This document shows, in pieces, positions 30,240 to 36,993 of a DNA stretch of 47,164 bases. The notes under the pieces are model-generated. The model searched no databases and was not told where the DNA came from. It saw only the letters and a list, made by a program, of their open reading frames with translations. This DNA is from Chitinophaga pinensis. GTDB taxonomy: Bacteria > Bacteroidota > Bacteroidia > Flavobacteriales_D > Crocinitomicaceae. Location: positions 1 to 47,164 of the forward strand of contig CALPWQ020000005.1 in NCBI GenBank assembly GCA_943327315.2, in the 5' to 3' direction. Both the position numbers and the translations under genes were made by a program. How positions within the stretch are numbered: the stretch's first letter is position 1; each line of letters begins with the position of its first letter.

Positions 30240-30959
30240 TTACCAATAGAAAAAGTTTTCAAACAAATAGATCAGCGCAAGGATCAGTAGTGAAAGGACG
30301 AAGAATCCAAGGCTGGCGACCGAGATCCCCAATCCTGTCCATGCGATATTTTTTCTTTTGTACAGTTCTGGATTTTGACGAAAATGTTTGATACTTTTTA
30401 TCGCTAGGATTAATCCGAGCACAGCAAAAAGCAGAACGATGAAAAATAGCCATGGATAACTCAATCCAAAGATGGCGTTCCACCCATTATCTGATAATAA
30501 AAAACATATGTTGAGTAAAAAAATCAGCGCTATTGAACCAGAGATTATCGATAAAATTCCGAGAGGATCAACGCGTGGTTCAGTGGGATTCAATACCGAC
30601 GTTTGTTTTTGATTTGCTGACTCAGGTGCTGTCTGCTTGACCTCCAGATTTTGATTTTCATCACTTAAGACATCCTTGGTGCTGCGGCCTTCGCGTGTTG
30701 GTGTTTCATTCACTTTCTCGACCTCCGCCTCCATTTCATTCGTCGTTTGACTATTGGCAGTGGTCGAGGCAGAAGAATTCTCAACGCGTCGATCCACATT
30801 CAGTGAAGAAGTTGAGTTGTTTTCTTGTGCTTGACTTTTATTCAGCGATGACTTCCACTCTACATGCCAGCCGGGATTGTGCATCCTTTTAGTGATGGTG
30901 CAGGCGCCAAGCAAAAATAGGGCGAGTAAAAAAATAACTGATTTCACTATTGTATTCAT
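30240..30959 (-). CDS. Lipoprotein with C-terminal membrane domain, tandem paralogue 1
   Basis: The 239-residue protein has a lipobox LLGAC (Cys20) followed by the block TITKRMHNPGWHVEWKS shared by all three tandem paralogues. A long polar linker rich in Ser, Asn, Gln and Glu follows, then from about residue 130 a membrane domain with about four hydrophobic helices in a DUF4190-like arrangement. This copy has a longer and more divergent membrane region than the other two. A lipid anchor plus transmembrane helices suggests an inner-membrane protein with a periplasmic linker. Function unknown. It lies 16 nt after paralogue 2. Confidence 0.78.
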   Translation of the reverse strand: MNTIVKSVIFLLALFLLGACTITKRMHNPGWHVEWKSSLNKSQAQENNSTSSLNVDRRVENSSASTTANSQTTNEMEAEVEKVNETPTREGRSTKDVLSDENQNLEVKQTAPESANQKQTSVLNPTEPRVDPLGILSIISGSIALIFLLNICFLLSDNGWNAIFGLSYPWLFFIVLLFAVLGLILAIKSIKHFRQNPELYKRKNIAWTGLGISVASLGFFVLSLLILALIYLFENFFYW

Positions 30960-30975
30960 TTTTGTTTATTGAAGT

Positions 30976-31611
30976 TTACAACCAACCTCCAGAGCTATAG
31001 TTGAATGCAATTGAAATTAACAAAATCAATAGCATCAATGGAATAAAAAGGACACTCGAGATAATGAGCACGGTCAAGGCCATTTTCCTTCCCGTCCATT
31101 GCTCCGGGTCACTTTTTATTTTTTTCAAGGCATACCTTGCCAAAATGATTGCGACAAGCATTCCTAGTCCAAAGGTCACAACAGATAAAATCAAAGAGAT
31201 GAGGGCAGCTTTAGCCAAGGGGTGAACTTTCTTCGCACTGGGGCCCTCATTTTCCTCTATGGTTGTTTCTTTTTCTTTATCCAATTTTGAAGAATAACTA
31301 GCACCTTGCTCTATGCGAATCACCTCCCAAGATTGTTCCTCCAGATAATCTTGTTCAATGGAAAAGGCAATATTCTGAGATAAATTGGGAATTTCATTTA
31401 CACGTTCTGTTTCTTCAGGTTGTAGTTCCGATAAGGATTCACCAGAAGCCTGTCCCTCTGTTATCGAAACATGTGTGGCAACCTGCTCAGATTCTTTAAT
31501 ATTTGAATGCGTTGACTTCCATTCCACATGCCAACCTGGATTGTGAACACGTTTGGTAATGGTGCATGCACCAAGCAAAAACAACGTAAGTAAAAAAGTA
31601 ATTGATTTCAT
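30976..31611 (-). CDS. DUF4190-type lipoprotein, tandem paralogue 2
   Basis: The 211-residue protein has lipobox LLGAC (Cys16) then TITKRVHNPGWHVEWKS. A polar, Glu-rich linker of about 90 residues leads to a DUF4190-like membrane part starting HPLAKAALISLILSVVTFGLG, with the cytoplasm-like motif YALKKI..DPEQWTGRKMA between helices and ending NYSSGGWL. It is the most complete of the three copies and serves as reference for the frameshift seen in paralogue 3. It lies 52 nt after paralogue 3. Function unknown; a membrane or envelope-stress role would be a guess. Confidence 0.78.
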   Translation of the reverse strand: MKSITFLLTLFLLGACTITKRVHNPGWHVEWKSTHSNIKESEQVATHVSITEGQASGESLSELQPEETERVNEIPNLSQNIAFSIEQDYLEEQSWEVIRIEQGASYSSKLDKEKETTIEENEGPSAKKVHPLAKAALISLILSVVTFGLGMLVAIILARYALKKIKSDPEQWTGRKMALTVLIISSVLFIPLMLLILLISIAFNYSSGGWL

Positions 31612-31663
31612 AATCGTATAGTTCTTTGTTCCTAAAGTTTACAACCAACCCCCTCCGCTGCCG

Positions 31664-32284
31664 TTAATATGTTATTACATAAATAAAGAACCACACAACA
31701 AACGAAAATACTAACAGAGCAGGAATTAATAAAATACTCGAGATGATGAGTACGATTTTTGCCATTTTTCTTCCTTCCCACTGTTCCGGTTTCTGATTTA
31801 TTTTTTTTAAAGCATATAAGGCTAAAACAAAAGCAACAAGCGCTCCAAGTCCGAAGGTTATAACTGACAAAATCAACGATATAAGTGCTGCTTTGGCTAA
31901 GGGGTGAACTTTCTTAACACTCGGGTCCTCTTTTTCATAGATAGATCTCCCTTTATCTTCAACTAATTTTGAAGAATTTCCAGATTCCATTCCTGCATTG
32001 GTCGATGTCAACGCTTGTTCTTCTTGTTCATCTGACAGGATCGCGTTACCCACAGGATTGGGATTTTCACTTGTAACATGCGCTTCTTCTTGCTGCTGTT
32101 CTGGAAGGGATTCCTTAGGCGTTTGTCCAACAAGCAACGATTGATCTGCATTAACATACTCTCGATCCTTATCACTTGAAAGATTTGATTTCCATTCCAC
32201 ATGCCAGCCCGAATTGTGCACGCGCTTTGTGATAGAACACGAACCAAAAACAATTGACAAAGCAATTAAATAGATTGTCCTCAT
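31664..32284 (-). CDS. DUF4190-type lipoprotein, tandem paralogue 3, C-terminus altered by frameshift
   Basis: The 206-residue protein has a lipobox F-G-S-C (Cys16), then SITKRVHNSGWHVEWKS, a polar linker and a DUF4190-like membrane region very close to paralogue 2 (HPLAKAALISLILSVITFGLG). It stops at 31666-31664 after VITY. Deleting one T from the codons around that stop would continue the frame as N-G-S-G-G-G-W-L and end at 31639, matching the NYSSGGWL end of paralogue 2. A one-base insertion therefore seems to have removed the last eight residues. It is the first gene of the array, with a -7 box 25 nt upstream. Confidence 0.76.
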   Translation of the reverse strand: MRTIYLIALSIVFGSCSITKRVHNSGWHVEWKSNLSSDKDREYVNADQSLLVGQTPKESLPEQQQEEAHVTSENPNPVGNAILSDEQEEQALTSTNAGMESGNSSKLVEDKGRSIYEKEDPSVKKVHPLAKAALISLILSVITFGLGALVAFVLALYALKKINQKPEQWEGRKMAKIVLIISSILLIPALLVFSFVVWFFIYVITY

Positions 32285-32400: not shown

Positions 32401-32435
32401 AAAAAAAATGCCCCATTCAAACGAACAGGGCATTT
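32401..32435 (-). terminator. Terminator of the ECF-MbnPH-YHYH unit
   Basis: On the minus strand AAATGCCC (32435-32428) pairs with GGGCATTT (32413-32406), followed by a run of T residues. It lies 20 nt past the YHYH gene stop and closes the six-gene unit. Confidence 0.85.
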
Positions 32436-32455
32436 CAAAAGTGAATACATATTGT

Positions 32456-33862
32456 CTAATCAATCACAACTGTATACGTACGTTGCTTTCCTGGCTCATT
32501 GATGCGCAGAAAATAAGTTCCGCTATACAAGGTTGACGCATTGAAATAACACAGGGTGCTTCCTTGATAAATGGTCTGCGTTTGAATAACTTTTCCAGTA
32601 GCATCAACCAATTCGGCACTTACATTTCCTAGGAGCAATCCAGAGGCTTGAACTACCAAAATATCGGCTGTTGGATTGGGGAAAATGCTGAAAGTAGTTG
32701 CGCTTAAATCTTCAACTCCTGCCGATGATGTATAGGTCGTCACTGTCTCCGTAATTGATGTCACCTTAGATGCGACCTTAGTTCCATAGAATGTTGGTCC
32801 AACGGCATACGGATACGCAGAGTTGTGATTTGCATCCACAGTAGCGAAGTAGCAATAAATTCCATTTGGATATTCGGGTGTTACACAAAAACGTCCGTTG
32901 TGTTCGTCTAGATAATCCGCTTGGCCAGCGTGTGCCACGAACTCGTAATCTTCACGGAAATAGCCCAAGGGATAAGTCGTACTCACGGCAGGACCATCAG
33001 CTACATTGGTGCCATCCGCCCATACTATTCTGGTAGTGATGTTTCTCAATTGATACCCCGATTTGATGCGCACAATCCCACCAGTTCCGTCAGCATTGGC
33101 ATATCCATACGCTCCATAAATCGGGAAACCATCATAGGCAAATCCAATCAATGGTGAATGTTGTGCTGCGTTGATTGCATACAATCCATCAGCTGCATAC
33201 AAATCACAAACGGTTGAAATTACTGTCAAGTCAAGATTGAAGGCACTTGGATTTTGGTGATGGTGATAATTACCCATTGCTGGGTGACCTTTTGAGCAGT
33301 CGAAGCCAAGTTTTTCCGCTGGAATAGCATCACGATTCCAAGATTGTGCTGTTCCTGGTCCACCTGGACAAGGCGACATACCAGGTAAACCTCCACACAA
33401 GGTGTTTGTTGTTGTGTTCCAAGCCACACCATCACGGTAGTCGAATAAGGCAACACCATTGATAAACACACCGATATTTCCTCCAGTCGTAGCGGTAGGC
33501 GTTCCTGTATTTTGAACTGGATTCAAAGGAAATTTAAAAATCGCATTTTGATCTGTAGCCAACGATGGATTTCCATCCAAGAAAGGACCTGTTGGATAAG
33601 CAGGAATTCCGTTTGTGGTCACATACACCCAATTTGTTGAATATTGCACCGTTTGCACATTCGCCGCAACATTGTCTTGAATCACTGTTGAGTTACCTGA
33701 AACATAATGGCTACCCAAAATACCTGTCGTATTTTGCAACCAAGCCGTAATCGCAGGGTTCGTTTGTCCGAAAGCTATGGAACTTAGTCCAACAGCAAAA
33801 ACGGAACACATTTTTGTCATCATCATATTTAGTCGTTTTGTAGTGTTAGGATACTTTTTCAT
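32456..33862 (-). CDS. YHYH-domain protein with T9SS sorting domain
   Basis: A 468-residue exported protein. The N-terminus is open from 33862, but a second plausible start at 33826 (MMMTKMCSVFAVGLSSIAFGQ) gives a more compact signal peptide. Residues of about 100-360 match the YHYH family (PF14240), named for the His-rich core seen here as GNYHHHQ (about residues 197-203), with CSKGHP before it and FAYDGFPIYGAYGY and LDEHNGRFCVTPEYPNG after it. The last 80 residues are a T9SS sorting domain (SIFPNPTADILVVQ ... TYFLRINEPG). The family's function is not established; the dense histidines, aromatic residues and cysteines suggest metal binding. It lies 20 nt after the di-heme gene. Confidence 0.9.
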   Translation of the reverse strand: MKKYPNTTKRLNMMMTKMCSVFAVGLSSIAFGQTNPAITAWLQNTTGILGSHYVSGNSTVIQDNVAANVQTVQYSTNWVYVTTNGIPAYPTGPFLDGNPSLATDQNAIFKFPLNPVQNTGTPTATTGGNIGVFINGVALFDYRDGVAWNTTTNTLCGGLPGMSPCPGGPGTAQSWNRDAIPAEKLGFDCSKGHPAMGNYHHHQNPSAFNLDLTVISTVCDLYAADGLYAINAAQHSPLIGFAYDGFPIYGAYGYANADGTGGIVRIKSGYQLRNITTRIVWADGTNVADGPAVSTTYPLGYFREDYEFVAHAGQADYLDEHNGRFCVTPEYPNGIYCYFATVDANHNSAYPYAVGPTFYGTKVASKVTSITETVTTYTSSAGVEDLSATTFSIFPNPTADILVVQASGLLLGNVSAELVDATGKVIQTQTIYQGSTLCYFNASTLYSGTYFLRINEPGKQRTYTVVID

Positions 33863-33882
33863 TCGAAAACTTGTGCAAGAAA

Positions 33883-34914
33883 CTACTTTTTTGGAAAAGA
33901 AAAACGCGGATTATATAAAAATTCTTTGTCGGTCAAGGTGTACAAGAAGGCCAATAAGTCCTTTTGCTGCTTGTCGCTCAGGTGAATCGGCCCATTTAAT
34001 TCACGGCTTAAATGCCTATTTGTCGGATCGATTTTATCACTATAATAGGATATCACTTCCTTTAATTTTCGAAAACGGCCATCATGCATGTAAGGAAAAG
34101 TAAATTCGATATTTCGCAATGTCGGAATCATGAACAAGAATGAATCTACTTCTTTCCCTGTTATTGCGAACCTTCCTAGATCATTGTATTGTAGATCTTT
34201 AGGTAGACCATTCGACTTAAATTGATGGGTGGTAAACAAGGGTTCTTGGTGGCAGGAAACACAATGTTGACGAAAAATCACGAGTCCACTTTGCTCTTGT
34301 TCAGTGAAAGTCACCCCTTTTTCCTTTCGCAGCACTTGATCGTACTTGCTGTTTGCCGAGATCAAGGAGCGTGTAAATTGACTCAAGGCATTCATCAGCT
34401 TTGCCGTAGTAATTTGATCGGATCCATACACCCGTTGAAATTGTTTACGGTAGTCATCATTCAAAGTTAGGCGGCGAATGACTTCGGCCAGGGTGTTGTC
34501 CATTTCAGCGGGATGTGTCAACGGATTGATCCCTTGCGCTTCGATGTGGTTGACACCGCCGTCCCAGTGAAAAAACTTCTTCCATGCCAAATTAATCAAC
34601 GCTGGCGCATTTCGCGTGCCCTTACGGCCATCAATTCCATGGCTCACATTGTGGTCAACATGCGTAAATCCCGTGTATTGAAGATGACATGTTGCACAAG
34701 AGATTGTGCTGTCACGGGACAACATCGGGTCATAAAATAAGCTTCTTCCCAATTGAAAACCCTCTTCTGAAATTGCCTTTTCAGAAAGATCATACGTCGG
34801 TTTCGGCCATTTTTTCGGGATTGAAATTTCTGATTTGAAGAGTGGGAGATCAAAACGATATGCCGACAAGAACACTGAAATCAATACAAACAAAAGGAAA
34901 ATTGATCTATTCAT
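33883..34914 (-). CDS. MbnH/MauG-like di-heme cytochrome c peroxidase family protein
   Basis: The 343-residue protein has an N-terminal hydrophobic export segment and two c-type heme motifs, CATCH (residues 73-77) and CVSCH (218-222). Typical bacterial CCP/MauG segments are GRKGTRNAPALINLAW, FHWDGGVNHIEAQ and PYMHDGRF (about 274-281). It overlaps the MbnP-like gene by 8 nt, the arrangement of MbnP/MbnH pairs. In methanotrophs MbnH oxidises a tryptophan of MbnP to kynurenine. A plain cytochrome c peroxidase is the alternative, but the tight linkage to an MbnP-like gene favours MbnH. Confidence 0.88.
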   Translation of the reverse strand: MNRSIFLLFVLISVFLSAYRFDLPLFKSEISIPKKWPKPTYDLSEKAISEEGFQLGRSLFYDPMLSRDSTISCATCHLQYTGFTHVDHNVSHGIDGRKGTRNAPALINLAWKKFFHWDGGVNHIEAQGINPLTHPAEMDNTLAEVIRRLTLNDDYRKQFQRVYGSDQITTAKLMNALSQFTRSLISANSKYDQVLRKEKGVTFTEQEQSGLVIFRQHCVSCHQEPLFTTHQFKSNGLPKDLQYNDLGRFAITGKEVDSFLFMIPTLRNIEFTFPYMHDGRFRKLKEVISYYSDKIDPTNRHLSRELNGPIHLSDKQQKDLLAFLYTLTDKEFLYNPRFSFPKK

Positions 34915-35584
34915 GGCGATAGGTCAATTGAATGGATGCTTGCACTTTTGTCGCTAATTCTGCTGAAATTTTACCCGGAATCATGAGTGAATATATACCT
35001 TTCTTAAATGCATACATCAACCAATCGTCCATGTGGATAACAAGTTGAGGAATACCATTCTGCGGATTGACATCAAATGAGAGGAAACGCGCGGTTGCAT
35101 TGGGTGCTAAATATCCTCCAAGATGGAATTCAAAGGGAATTTCTTTACCTATAGAGTCAATATAAATTCCTTCAGTTTTTACATTGATGTAGCCGCTGTT
35201 CCATGCCCAATACATGCCGTTAATGGGGTCTAATGCACCTTCTAGAATACCAGAAACATTGCTCAAGCTGTCTGTACCCAACAAAAAATCAAGGCGCACA
35301 GCCGCAGAATCTATTTCTCCAATAGATTGACTAGATGAATCTTCAAGATTTACGAGAACCCTTGGCAAGCCCTTAATAACCTTTCCTTTCTCCGTTAGAG
35401 TGCGAAAATCACTGACATAGAATTTAACCGCATAAAAACTTATATATCCTTCTCTGATAGCATATTCTTTACCCAATTCAATGGGTTGCGAGCCTACGCA
35501 TGGAAGAAAACGAAGCACGGATTGATTAAATGCATTAAAGCAAATCAACACAAGGCTAAAGCATACAAATTTTGAAACCGTCAA
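34907..35584 (-). CDS. MbnP family copper-binding-type protein
   Basis: The 225-residue protein starts with a signal-like segment (MTVSKFVCFSLVLICFNAFNQ). It has the MbnP landmarks FYVSDF, VRLDFLLGTDS, DPINGMYWAWNSGYINVK (about residues 119-136) and FEFHLGGY (about 151-158). MbnP proteins bind copper, and their site depends on a tryptophan oxidised by the partner MbnH; the tryptophans at residues 126 and 128 are the obvious candidates but I cannot assign one. It sits 5 nt after the Spy-like gene and overlaps the di-heme gene. Confidence 0.85.
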   Translation of the reverse strand: MTVSKFVCFSLVLICFNAFNQSVLRFLPCVGSQPIELGKEYAIREGYISFYAVKFYVSDFRTLTEKGKVIKGLPRVLVNLEDSSSQSIGEIDSAAVRLDFLLGTDSLSNVSGILEGALDPINGMYWAWNSGYINVKTEGIYIDSIGKEIPFEFHLGGYLAPNATARFLSFDVNPQNGIPQLVIHMDDWLMYAFKKGIYSLMIPGKISAELATKVQASIQLTYRHE

Positions 35585-35589
35585 TGCAT

Positions 35590-36042
35590 TTATCTTTTAG
35601 GTCGAGAAGGAGGCCCATCACGTCGAATCACTTCTTCGAAATGTTCATTTAAGCGTTCGCGTTGTTCAGCATTGCAATAAGTCTTCAATTCATCAAAATA
35701 GGCATACAACAAAAATGCAATTTTTCTGTGATTCTCTGCAATGGCATTAACAAGTTCGTTTGCTTTCGTACTGTCCTCATTTTCCTTCAGAAAAACGCGA
35801 TAAAGCTGGTCGTGAAGTTGTTTAATTTGATCATTGAGGCGATGCATTTCCCTATGATGATTTTGTTGAATTCGGTTAACTTCCTTTTCCTTTTGGCCTT
35901 TAATCCCAAGTTTTGCAGCAATATTTATTCTGTCTGGAGGCATAGGTGGATGATCTGGTCTCAACAATAAAAAACAAAGTGTCACTATATTGATTGCAAC
36001 CAATATAAGCAACAGCATTCTGTACATTTTCAACGTTTTCAT
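35590..36042 (-). CDS. Spy/CpxP-like periplasmic protein with N-terminal membrane anchor
   Basis: The 150-residue protein has one hydrophobic helix at about residues 9-27 and then a helical, charged periplasmic part rich in His, Gln and Arg (NHHREMHRLNDQIKQLHDQL). It looks like the 'heavy-metal resistance'/Spy-CpxP type, proteins that sense or bind metals or act as periplasmic chaperones. Histidines near residues 31, 62-63, 67, 77, 105 and 134 could bind metal. The ATG shares one base with the stop of the preceding gene (TAATG), indicating coupling. Confidence 0.7.
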   Translation of the reverse strand: MKTLKMYRMLLLILVAINIVTLCFLLLRPDHPPMPPDRINIAAKLGIKGQKEKEVNRIQQNHHREMHRLNDQIKQLHDQLYRVFLKENEDSTKANELVNAIAENHRKIAFLLYAYFDELKTYCNAEQRERLNEHFEEVIRRDGPPSRPKR

Positions 36043-36329
36043 TAAATTGAATTATAGGGTGAAAAATAAGTGCTATAAATCGAATTGTCCTTGTTCGCGT
36101 TGATATTTTTTTGTTTTATGCTGATTGCGAACGCGTTGATGGAAATTAATAGCGCTAAGCCTGCAGCAGCCATCCAAACATGAGTACTTGGAAGCGTAAA
36201 TGCTTTGACCTCCAAACGATTCGGAATATCCATCAGTTGATTGCGCAGATGAGCGGGCAAAGGACGCTCTTTGTTGAAAGGGTCGCGCTCCATCGCTTCA
36301 TCTATCCAATGTTTTTTGTCCATGCTCAT
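36042..36329 (-). CDS. Small single-TM protein, candidate anti-sigma factor
   Basis: The 95-residue protein has a polar N-terminal part (KKHWIDEAMERDPFNKERPLPAHLRNQL) and one transmembrane helix at about residues 51-70 (VWMAAAGLALLISINAFAIS), then a short periplasmic tail. It matches no family I can name. The N-in single-TM layout, small size and position 30 nt after an ECF sigma gene are typical of anti-sigma factors in this phylum, so that role is an inference from context only. Confidence 0.6.
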   Translation of the reverse strand: MSMDKKHWIDEAMERDPFNKERPLPAHLRNQLMDIPNRLEVKAFTLPSTHVWMAAAGLALLISINAFAISIKQKNINANKDNSIYSTYFSPYNSI

Positions 36330-36359
36330 ATTGATACCATTAAGTTAAAAATATTGCGT

Positions 36360-36938
36360 TTACATTTCATTTTCTTCATAATACCTTTGTAATTTTTGCT
36401 GAAGGTTTTTCCGAGCACGAAAGATTAAGGATTCTACAGCAGTGATCCTTAAGTTTAAAATTGTGCAGATCTCCTGTTGTGAAACACCTTCAATTTTGTG
36501 CAATGTAAATGCCAAGTGTTGTTTTTCAGGCAACTGATTTATTGCCGCATACAAGACAGCTGATCGCTCCTTATTCTCCAACTCCTCCACCGGTCCTTCA
36601 GACACAACAATTAAACTTTCTGAGGCATTCACATTGTCGATTGAAAGCATGAAGCCGAAGCGTTTCTTGCGCGAACGATTGCGCACATGTTCTTTGAATT
36701 TATTCACTGAAATTCGATAAATCCAAGTGGAGAGCTTTGATTCGCCCTTGAAATGAGAAATCGTTAAATAAACGGTGGTGAACACTTCTTGTGTAAGGTC
36801 CTCCGCCTCCGTCTCATCGCGCAGGAGTCCACGCAACAGATTGAAAACTTTCTCTGCATGCAGGTCAATGAGCAATGAAAACTCCTTGTTGTCTCCTTTT
36901 TTGAGACGTTCAATATCAATGTGTTTTGTTTCGCTCAT
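36360..36938 (-). CDS. ECF-type RNA polymerase sigma factor
   Basis: The 192-residue protein has sigma region 2 (AEKVFNLLRGLLRDETEAEDLTQEVF ... TWIYRISVNKFKEH) and region 4 (LPEKQHLAFTLHKIEGVSQQEICTILNL), the minimal architecture of extracytoplasmic-function sigma factors. It is the first gene of the unit that continues through the small TM protein, Spy-like protein, MbnP, MbnH and YHYH protein, and it probably directs transcription of that unit. No TAnnTTTG box is visible immediately upstream, compatible with transcription by an alternative sigma factor, possibly itself. Confidence 0.92.
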   Translation of the reverse strand: MSETKHIDIERLKKGDNKEFSLLIDLHAEKVFNLLRGLLRDETEAEDLTQEVFTTVYLTISHFKGESKLSTWIYRISVNKFKEHVRNRSRKKRFGFMLSIDNVNASESLIVVSEGPVEELENKERSAVLYAAINQLPEKQHLAFTLHKIEGVSQQEICTILNLRITAVESLIFRARKNLQQKLQRYYEENEM

Positions 36939-36993
36939 CCGTGCAATACACTTCAGATGACACTTTTTAGAATTCCTTGCGCAGCGGCTCGCA

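Follow-up and report, generated by a model that had tools for sequence, protein, structure and literature searches.

A conserved six-gene unit linking MbnP and MbnH to an exported YHYH protein and a candidate metal-responsive sigma factor module in Bacteroidia

We describe a compact unit of six genes in a 47,164-nucleotide stretch of DNA from Chitinophaga pinensis (contig CALPWQ020000005.1 of assembly GCA_943327315.2; hereafter the window). The unit joins the protein pair MbnP and MbnH to a YHYH protein that carries a type IX secretion system (T9SS) sorting domain, and places all three behind an extracytoplasmic function (ECF) sigma factor with two small companion genes, a likely regulator. 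Operons of this kind occur in many families of Bacteroidia, and the part played in them by the YHYH protein is the point of greatest interest.

The six genes lie on the minus strand and span positions 36938 to 32456. From first to last they encode a 192-residue ECF sigma factor (36360..36938), a 95-residue protein with one transmembrane segment that is a candidate anti-sigma factor (36042..36329), a Spy/CnrX-type protein of the Metal_resist class that is a candidate membrane-anchored periplasmic metal sensor (35590..36042), an MbnP-family protein with a TTG start (34907..35584), an MbnH/MauG-like di-heme enzyme (33883..34914) and the YHYH protein (32456..33862). By the coordinates of the open reading frames (ORFs), the successive junctions are a gap of 30 nt, an overlap of 1, a gap of 5, an overlap of 8 and a gap of 20. 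The layout proposed in the initial annotation, with six genes on one strand, gaps of at most 30 nt and two overlaps, is thus exact.

Conservation of the gene set

A scan of genome contigs yielded 46 loci seeded on MbnH, all from Bacteroidota except one in a metagenome-assembled genome of Gemmatimonadetes (L080). MbnP was present in 43 of them, YHYH in 32, the ECF, one-transmembrane and Spy-like genes together in 29, and all six genes in 21; three of the 14 loci without YHYH (L036, L045 and L077) end no more than about 250 nt from MbnH, making the absence there uninformative. The order of the genes varies. In L067 the three upstream genes are followed by YHYH, MbnP and MbnH, and loci L062 and L071 read YHYH-MbnP-MbnH; such rearranged orders favour a functional association over mere shared descent. 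Two species of Flavobacterium carry MbnP-MbnH-YHYH; the ECF switch is present as well in F. amnicola LLJ-11 (L063) but absent in F. buctense B7 (L051).

To counter the bias of an MbnH seed, we also searched from YHYH across 247 Bacteroidia genomes. YHYH was found in 89 of these, and MbnP in 184 of 247 drawn in the same way. Full-length matches at E ≤ 1e-40, with the genome of the window left out, gave 84 YHYH regions in 34 families. In 47 of the 84 loci, from 24 of the 34 families, a same-strand MbnP or MbnH gene lay no more than 6.5 kb away, a lower bound because some misses fall at contig ends, and ECF, Spy-like, MbnP and MbnH genes stood together in 21 loci from 16 families. If 2.5 MbnP genes per 3.6 Mb are assumed, the rough chance of such linkage is 0.0045 per YHYH gene. 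We split the YHYH proteins into types A, B and C by score to a profile that we built, at a cut-off of our own setting; the window holds a type A protein. Linkage to MbnP or MbnH was found for 38 of 46 type A, 9 of 31 type B and 0 of 7 type C loci. All 45 genomes with a type A YHYH have MbnP somewhere, against the 184 of 247 overall, a comparison made by eye. Within the window's own family, YHYH occurs in 118 of 200 genomes and MbnP in 194 of 200.

A tree of MbnH was built with FastTree from 116 rows, with long branches flagged. On it the YHYH label requires 9 changes, a count inflated by contig ends, against a mean of 27.6 when labels are shuffled; none of 500 shuffles gave a value as low. Recurring across families in more than one order, and so beyond chance, the gene set is conserved rather than accidental, and both YHYH and ECF genes are repeatedly found beside MbnP and MbnH in relatives.

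The MbnP–MbnH pair and the YHYH protein

The window MbnP matches PF20243 with 106 bits against a Pfam gathering cut-off of 27. An AlphaFold model built from a 35-sequence alignment has a mean predicted local distance difference test score (pLDDT) of 90.9, and VIA-align places it on 7L6G, the solved MbnP of Methylosinus trichosporium, with Z 15.5, a root-mean-square deviation of 3.2 over 198 residues and 17% identity; the next fold, transthyretin, has Z 5.6. Foldseek at E ≤ 0.001 returns only the six chains of 7L6G, with TM-scores (template modelling scores) of 0.49–0.53 by query length; E 2.1e-07 goes with a TM-score of 0.49. CorA and MopE are absent among the matches listed in these two fold comparisons. 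Residues M124, W126, W128, G131 and H154, which include the motif M124-Y-W126-A-W128, do not vary among all 105 sequences compared, that of the window being one of them, and a weak profile alignment with 7L6G (E 0.18) sets the conserved residues opposite GMAWNWQAG and a histidine. A 2021 PNAS paper on MbnP reportedly gives the copper ligands as His, Met and solvent, close to a kynurenine formed from the first Trp of the WxW motif. On the invariant M124, W126, W128 and H154 and these ligands, we judge that the copper site of MbnP is kept in a protein far from the methanotroph subgroup.

MbnH scores 184.7 bits to PF03150 (CCP_MauG; Pfam cut-off 25.6) and has two CxxCH motifs, CATCH and CVSCH, the first of which is present in 116 of 116 sequences. 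Its closest solved chain is 6e1c, annotated 'Di-heme enzyme' (E 1.4e-44). Tyr291 is found in 113 of the 116 sequences, the remainder being two gaps and one Phe, and the same column is Tyr in 6e1c; we take this residue to be the heme ligand of MauG-type enzymes, replacing the Met of peroxidases.

The YHYH protein carries the PF14240 domain (200.5 bits against a Pfam cut-off of 25) and a T9SS sorting domain of type A (PF18962, 39.7 against 27 bits; TIGR04183, 39.6 against 23 bits), with a signal peptide that appears probable by eye. Because Pfam and NCBIfam find no T9SS domain in the MbnP or MbnH of the window, only the YHYH protein is predicted to reach the surface. Its eponymous motif reads Y-H-H-H (residues 199–202); counting the window, 66 of 67 type A sequences linked to MbnH have His as the third letter. 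In comparisons that include a 26-sequence alignment, type A strongly conserves H193, Y199-H200-x-H202, H235, D188, D211, D244, E304, D305, D319 and H321; C189, Q203 and C219 mark type A and are mostly lacking in types B and C. The NP of the T9SS tail is kept in 65 of 67 linked type A sequences. Modelling with AlphaFold on 26 close sequences gave a poor result (mean pLDDT 49.2), which was left unused. A profile search of the PDB at E ≤ 10 gave five matches: four fall in the region of the T9SS tail, and the fifth, to a nanobody, looks like chance. In jumbo phages, the YHYH domain has been predicted to be a zinc-binding, metal-dependent hydrolase (PMC7824862). The protein of the window is an exported candidate metalloprotein, perhaps a client of the MbnP–MbnH pair. 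The initial annotation had named an MbnP-like protein, an MbnH/MauG-like di-heme enzyme and a YHYH protein with a T9SS signal. All three identities hold, the first by PF20243 and the 7L6G fold and the second by CCP_MauG, two CxxCH motifs and 6e1c, neither at an equivalog cut-off, and the third by domain scores above cut-off. The tryptophans and candidate metal ligands of MbnP on which its proposal turned are intact throughout our alignment.

We also considered YHYH as a second substrate of MbnH, modified at an invariant tryptophan. The idea found no support, as conservation is the same for W175, and nearly so for W41, without MbnH nearby: W175 is kept in 67/67 linked and 9/9 unlinked type A sequences and in 8/9 linked and 22/22 unlinked type B sequences, and W41 in 67/67 and 7/9 of type A and 9/9 and 22/22 of type B, respectively.

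Regulatory genes and unit boundaries

The first gene is an ECF sigma factor, as the initial annotation had it: Sigma70_r2 and Sigma70_r4_2 exceed the Pfam cut-offs and TIGR02937 scores 94.4 bits against 42.9. For the one-transmembrane protein neither Pfam nor the PDB gave a match, and among 25 sequences of this protein 1 matches DUF3379. Its size and position recall CnrY, and across loci it stands consistently between the ECF and Spy-like genes. Its hydrophobic stretch (residues 53–71) contains Asn65, which 41 of 53 sequences share. Near the N-terminus of the Spy-like protein, a strongly hydrophobic stretch (residues 9–27) carries Asn18, kept by 54 of 55 sequences; His62 (54/55), Phe116 (55/55) and Cys123 (49/55) are also conserved, and PF13801 is matched at E ≤ 0.01 by 15 of the 32 sequences scanned. 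A PDB search with the profile of the Spy-like protein gave, among its matches, a VirG-like protein (5ihf, E 0.0079) and Spy (3oeo, E 0.014). The asparagine conserved in both transmembrane helices suggests that sensor and anti-sigma factor pair within the membrane. A precedent is the CnrYXH system, where the sensor CnrX responds to bound cobalt or nickel, and metal on CnrX is thought to shift CnrY and so release CnrH (PMC4598750). From their architecture, together with weak homology, we interpret the three leading genes as a metal switch of the CnrH-CnrY-CnrX kind. The earlier labels, a queried anti-sigma factor and a Spy/CpxP-like protein, can on the same grounds be sharpened to a CnrY/CnrX-like pair, in which the Spy-like protein would act as a membrane-anchored sensor and not as a free chaperone.

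Sixteen nt 5′ of the ECF start codon, on the minus strand, lies an exact match to GCGCAAG-N16-CATCT (36955..36982), a candidate autoregulatory ECF promoter. With up to three mismatches and a spacer of 16, the motif occurs in 20 of 53 ECF upstream regions, window included, against a mean of 3.0 and a maximum of 5 in 20 shuffles at that spacer. Eight other spacers gave 3 to 10 regions, of which spacer 13 likewise outdid its shuffles (10, where these reached at most 7). The excess is less strong than the counts suggest, because the motif was chosen by eye from the same sequences, several of these are close kin and a few matches lie inside the ORF. In a search for a wider regulon, the motif had two exact matches in the window's own genome, one being this promoter and the other (L165, 10971) falling within an ORF on the opposite strand. 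Allowing one mismatch gave 27 matches, these two included, against 2 for the reversed pattern; coding bias may lie behind the excess of the 25 further places (L183-L207). An upstream motif is the expected sign of ECF autoregulation, and the unit is probably autoregulated.

At the other end, the terminal hairpin of the initial annotation is confirmed as an intrinsic-terminator-like structure of 14 pairs with a T run (32405..32436, minus strand). A scan found 7 such sites against 4.0 (standard deviation 2.0) in shuffles, which makes the hairpin weak evidence on its own; its position directly past the stop codon of the last gene fits a terminator.

Mechanism, alternatives and neighbouring genes

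Gene content, order and conservation, the invariant residues, the predicted MbnP fold, the T9SS domain and the promoter-like motif are established at the level of sequence. The operon is a real, conserved unit, probably under metal control, and copper, through MbnP, is the likely metal. We propose that it forms one transcription unit encoding a metal-sensing envelope module, and we lean, if only slightly, towards this account as a whole. By analogy with characterised relatives, the anchored Spy/CnrX-type protein would bind metal, most likely copper, in the periplasm and signal through its transmembrane helix to the one-transmembrane anti-sigma factor, freeing the ECF factor. The latter, to judge by the promoter-like motif, would turn on its own upstream promoter and hence the whole unit. 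MbnH, like its relatives, would then oxidise W126, the first Trp of the WxW motif of MbnP, to kynurenine, and mature periplasmic MbnP would hold Cu(I) by M124 and H154 near the modified residue. Finally, gene linkage alone points to the T9SS-exported YHYH protein as a surface or secreted metalloprotein partnering MbnP–MbnH, either as a client given copper before export or as an outer partner in copper capture. A bolder version, in which MbnP and MbnH serve YHYH alone, kynurenine-bearing MbnP loading copper into periplasmic YHYH ahead of T9SS export, and type A proteins form a new class of cell-surface copper enzymes in Bacteroidia, supplied under a CnrYXH-like switch, strikes us as decidedly unlikely.

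The individual parts are known. MbnP–MbnH pairing has been described far outside methanobactin producers (PMC3621798). The pair of the window resembles that of 7L6G and 6E1C in its adjacent, overlapping genes, in the MbnP fold, in the invariant WxW, Met and His, and in a Tyr placed as in 6E1C; it differs from the methanobactin pairs in that MbnP is shorter, that an ECF module and a YHYH gene accompany the pair, and that no MbnB or other methanobactin gene is recognised among the six. CorA/CorB and MopE/SACCP of methanotrophs likewise place the gene of a copper-site protein beside that of a di-heme peroxidase, with a kynurenine copper site in CorA/MopE and an exported protein in the system (PMC3912023). 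Here, unlike in MopE/CorA, the exported protein is YHYH, and MbnP carries no T9SS domain. The first three genes parallel CnrYXH of Cupriavidus metallidurans, with an ECF factor, a short one-transmembrane anti-sigma candidate and an anchored periplasmic protein of the Spy/Metal_resist class. The Cnr switch stands before an efflux pump, whereas MbnP, MbnH and YHYH follow it here, and the homology is weak. With YHYH (PF14240) proteins of phages, diatoms and bacteria, the YHYH protein shares the YHxH motif and conserved His and Asp; type A differs from the others in C189/Q203/C219, in its T9SS tail and in mostly adjoining MbnP/MbnH. In the open-licence literature we found no description linking YHYH to copper, MbnP or MbnH, nor any of the six-gene combination; the author of the initial annotation likewise knew of no such system. 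The operon links two questions, what MbnP/MbnH does in bacteria other than methanotrophs and what the YHYH domain does.

Several other explanations fit part of this evidence. The unit might serve uptake under copper limitation, being turned on when copper is scarce, with YHYH binding the metal outside and MbnP acting in periplasmic uptake, as has been proposed for MopE/CorA in methanotrophs. CorA and MopE are copper-repressed, surface-associated or secreted, and bind Cu(I) with kynurenine beside a co-transcribed di-heme peroxidase (PMC3912023), and the T9SS domain of YHYH would suit such a role; described CnrX, however, responds to metal presence in the form of bound cobalt or nickel (PMC4598750), and we hold uptake to be possible but doubtful. 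A somewhat unlikely alternative is defence against metal stress, with the CnrYXH-like switch turned on by excess metal and MbnP and YHYH sequestering or oxidising it. The layout of ECF factor, short one-transmembrane protein and anchored Metal_resist sensor speaks for such a defence, but the genes downstream of the switch are MbnP, MbnH and YHYH in place of the efflux pump of Cnr. Uptake and defence face the same difficulty in the flanks: clustering of flanking ORFs at 77 loci (families unannotated) gave no family, hence no transporter family, that passed 10 loci. The most frequent flanking families are genes that adjoin the unit in close relatives.

There are two further possibilities. YHYH could be a passenger, an exported metal-dependent hydrolase that only shares the operon, as the hydrolase prediction for jumbo-phage domains (PMC7824862) and the 37 of 84 YHYH loci without MbnP or MbnH nearby would allow; the linkage in 24 families with differing orders, and the small number of changes on the MbnH tree (9, where shuffling averages 27.6), make us consider this unlikely. 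Alternatively, the first three genes could sense folding stress in the envelope, in the manner of Spy/CpxP chaperones, and MbnP, MbnH and YHYH could be a maturation set for surface proteins. The better matches of the Spy-like profile to 5ihf and 3oeo than to the nickel-cobalt sensor NccX speak for this, but the N-terminal hydrophobic helix with its Asn, the conserved His and Cys, and the fact that MbnP-family partners are metal proteins speak against it, and we think it the least probable of the explanations considered.

For the metal-sensing envelope module, the following points weigh on the opposite side. MbnP reaches 24.3 bits against the NCBIfam equivalog TIGR04052 (cut-off 140), which marks its distance from the methanotroph subgroup, and MbnH 208.9 bits against TIGR04039 (cut-off 362.85); all 35 MbnP sequences scanned match TIGR04052 at E ≤ 0.01, and TIGR04039 is still the top NCBIfam match of MbnH, ahead of MauG at 166.8. 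The Spy-like protein passes PF13801 marginally (29.4 bits, cut-off 29.2), and its similarity to NccX is weak (E 0.27). The 37 YHYH loci with neither partner nearby comprise 8 of 46 of type A (for three of these 8 the contig extends less than 2.3 kb upstream), 22 of 31 of type B and 7 of 7 of type C, and in YHYH the conservation of Trp, His and Asp is independent of MbnH linkage. Of 13 MbnP sites picked outside YHYH neighbourhoods (L168-L180), at least 11 adjoin MbnH and none has YHYH in the stretch covered. The window's own genome holds one more YHYH gene, whose product has a T9SS-like tail (L165 7719-9056, contig 24); this gene is solitary, with no MbnP or MbnH in the stretch examined, and further MbnP–MbnH pairs on contigs 97 and 65 (L003, L004; L002 on contig 175), the contig-65 MbnP perhaps lying in two pieces, on contigs 65 and 175. 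On the MbnH tree, 25 changes are required for the ECF label, a count also inflated by contig ends and taken without a shuffle comparison; set against the 9 changes for YHYH, this makes the YHYH link look stable and the ECF switch look more often gained or lost. Finally, as no flanking family exceeds 10 of 77 loci, no seventh gene points to copper.

Some loci show variants of the unit. L053 and L066 contain two tandem MbnP–MbnH pairs, and in L053 the ECF, one-transmembrane and Spy-like genes precede the second pair. The MbnP of L053 carries a T9SS-like tail by profile and that of L004 ends in one by eye, which raises the possibility of surface export for some MbnP proteins as well. In Flavobacterium-like loci (L051, L054, L055, L061 and L063) a second, different CCP_MauG-like gene lies 3′ of YHYH; that of L054 encodes 394 residues and is confirmed by Pfam. 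In four loci (L059, L062, L070 and L162), a family of about 548 residues, reminiscent of arylsulfotransferases, lies at most 8 kb from MbnH.

In the window, a polyprenyl synthetase gene lies upstream on the same strand, 55 nt 5′ of the ECF start, and an Rfam scan returned no family at gathering score. Beyond the terminator, 3′ of the unit, are three tandem paralogous ORFs for small membrane- or lipoprotein-like proteins (30240-32284, minus strand). One of them, ORF 31664-32284, was scanned and showed a likeness to DUF4190 below the cut-off. All three share the N-terminal pattern C.ITKR.HN.GWHVEWKS.

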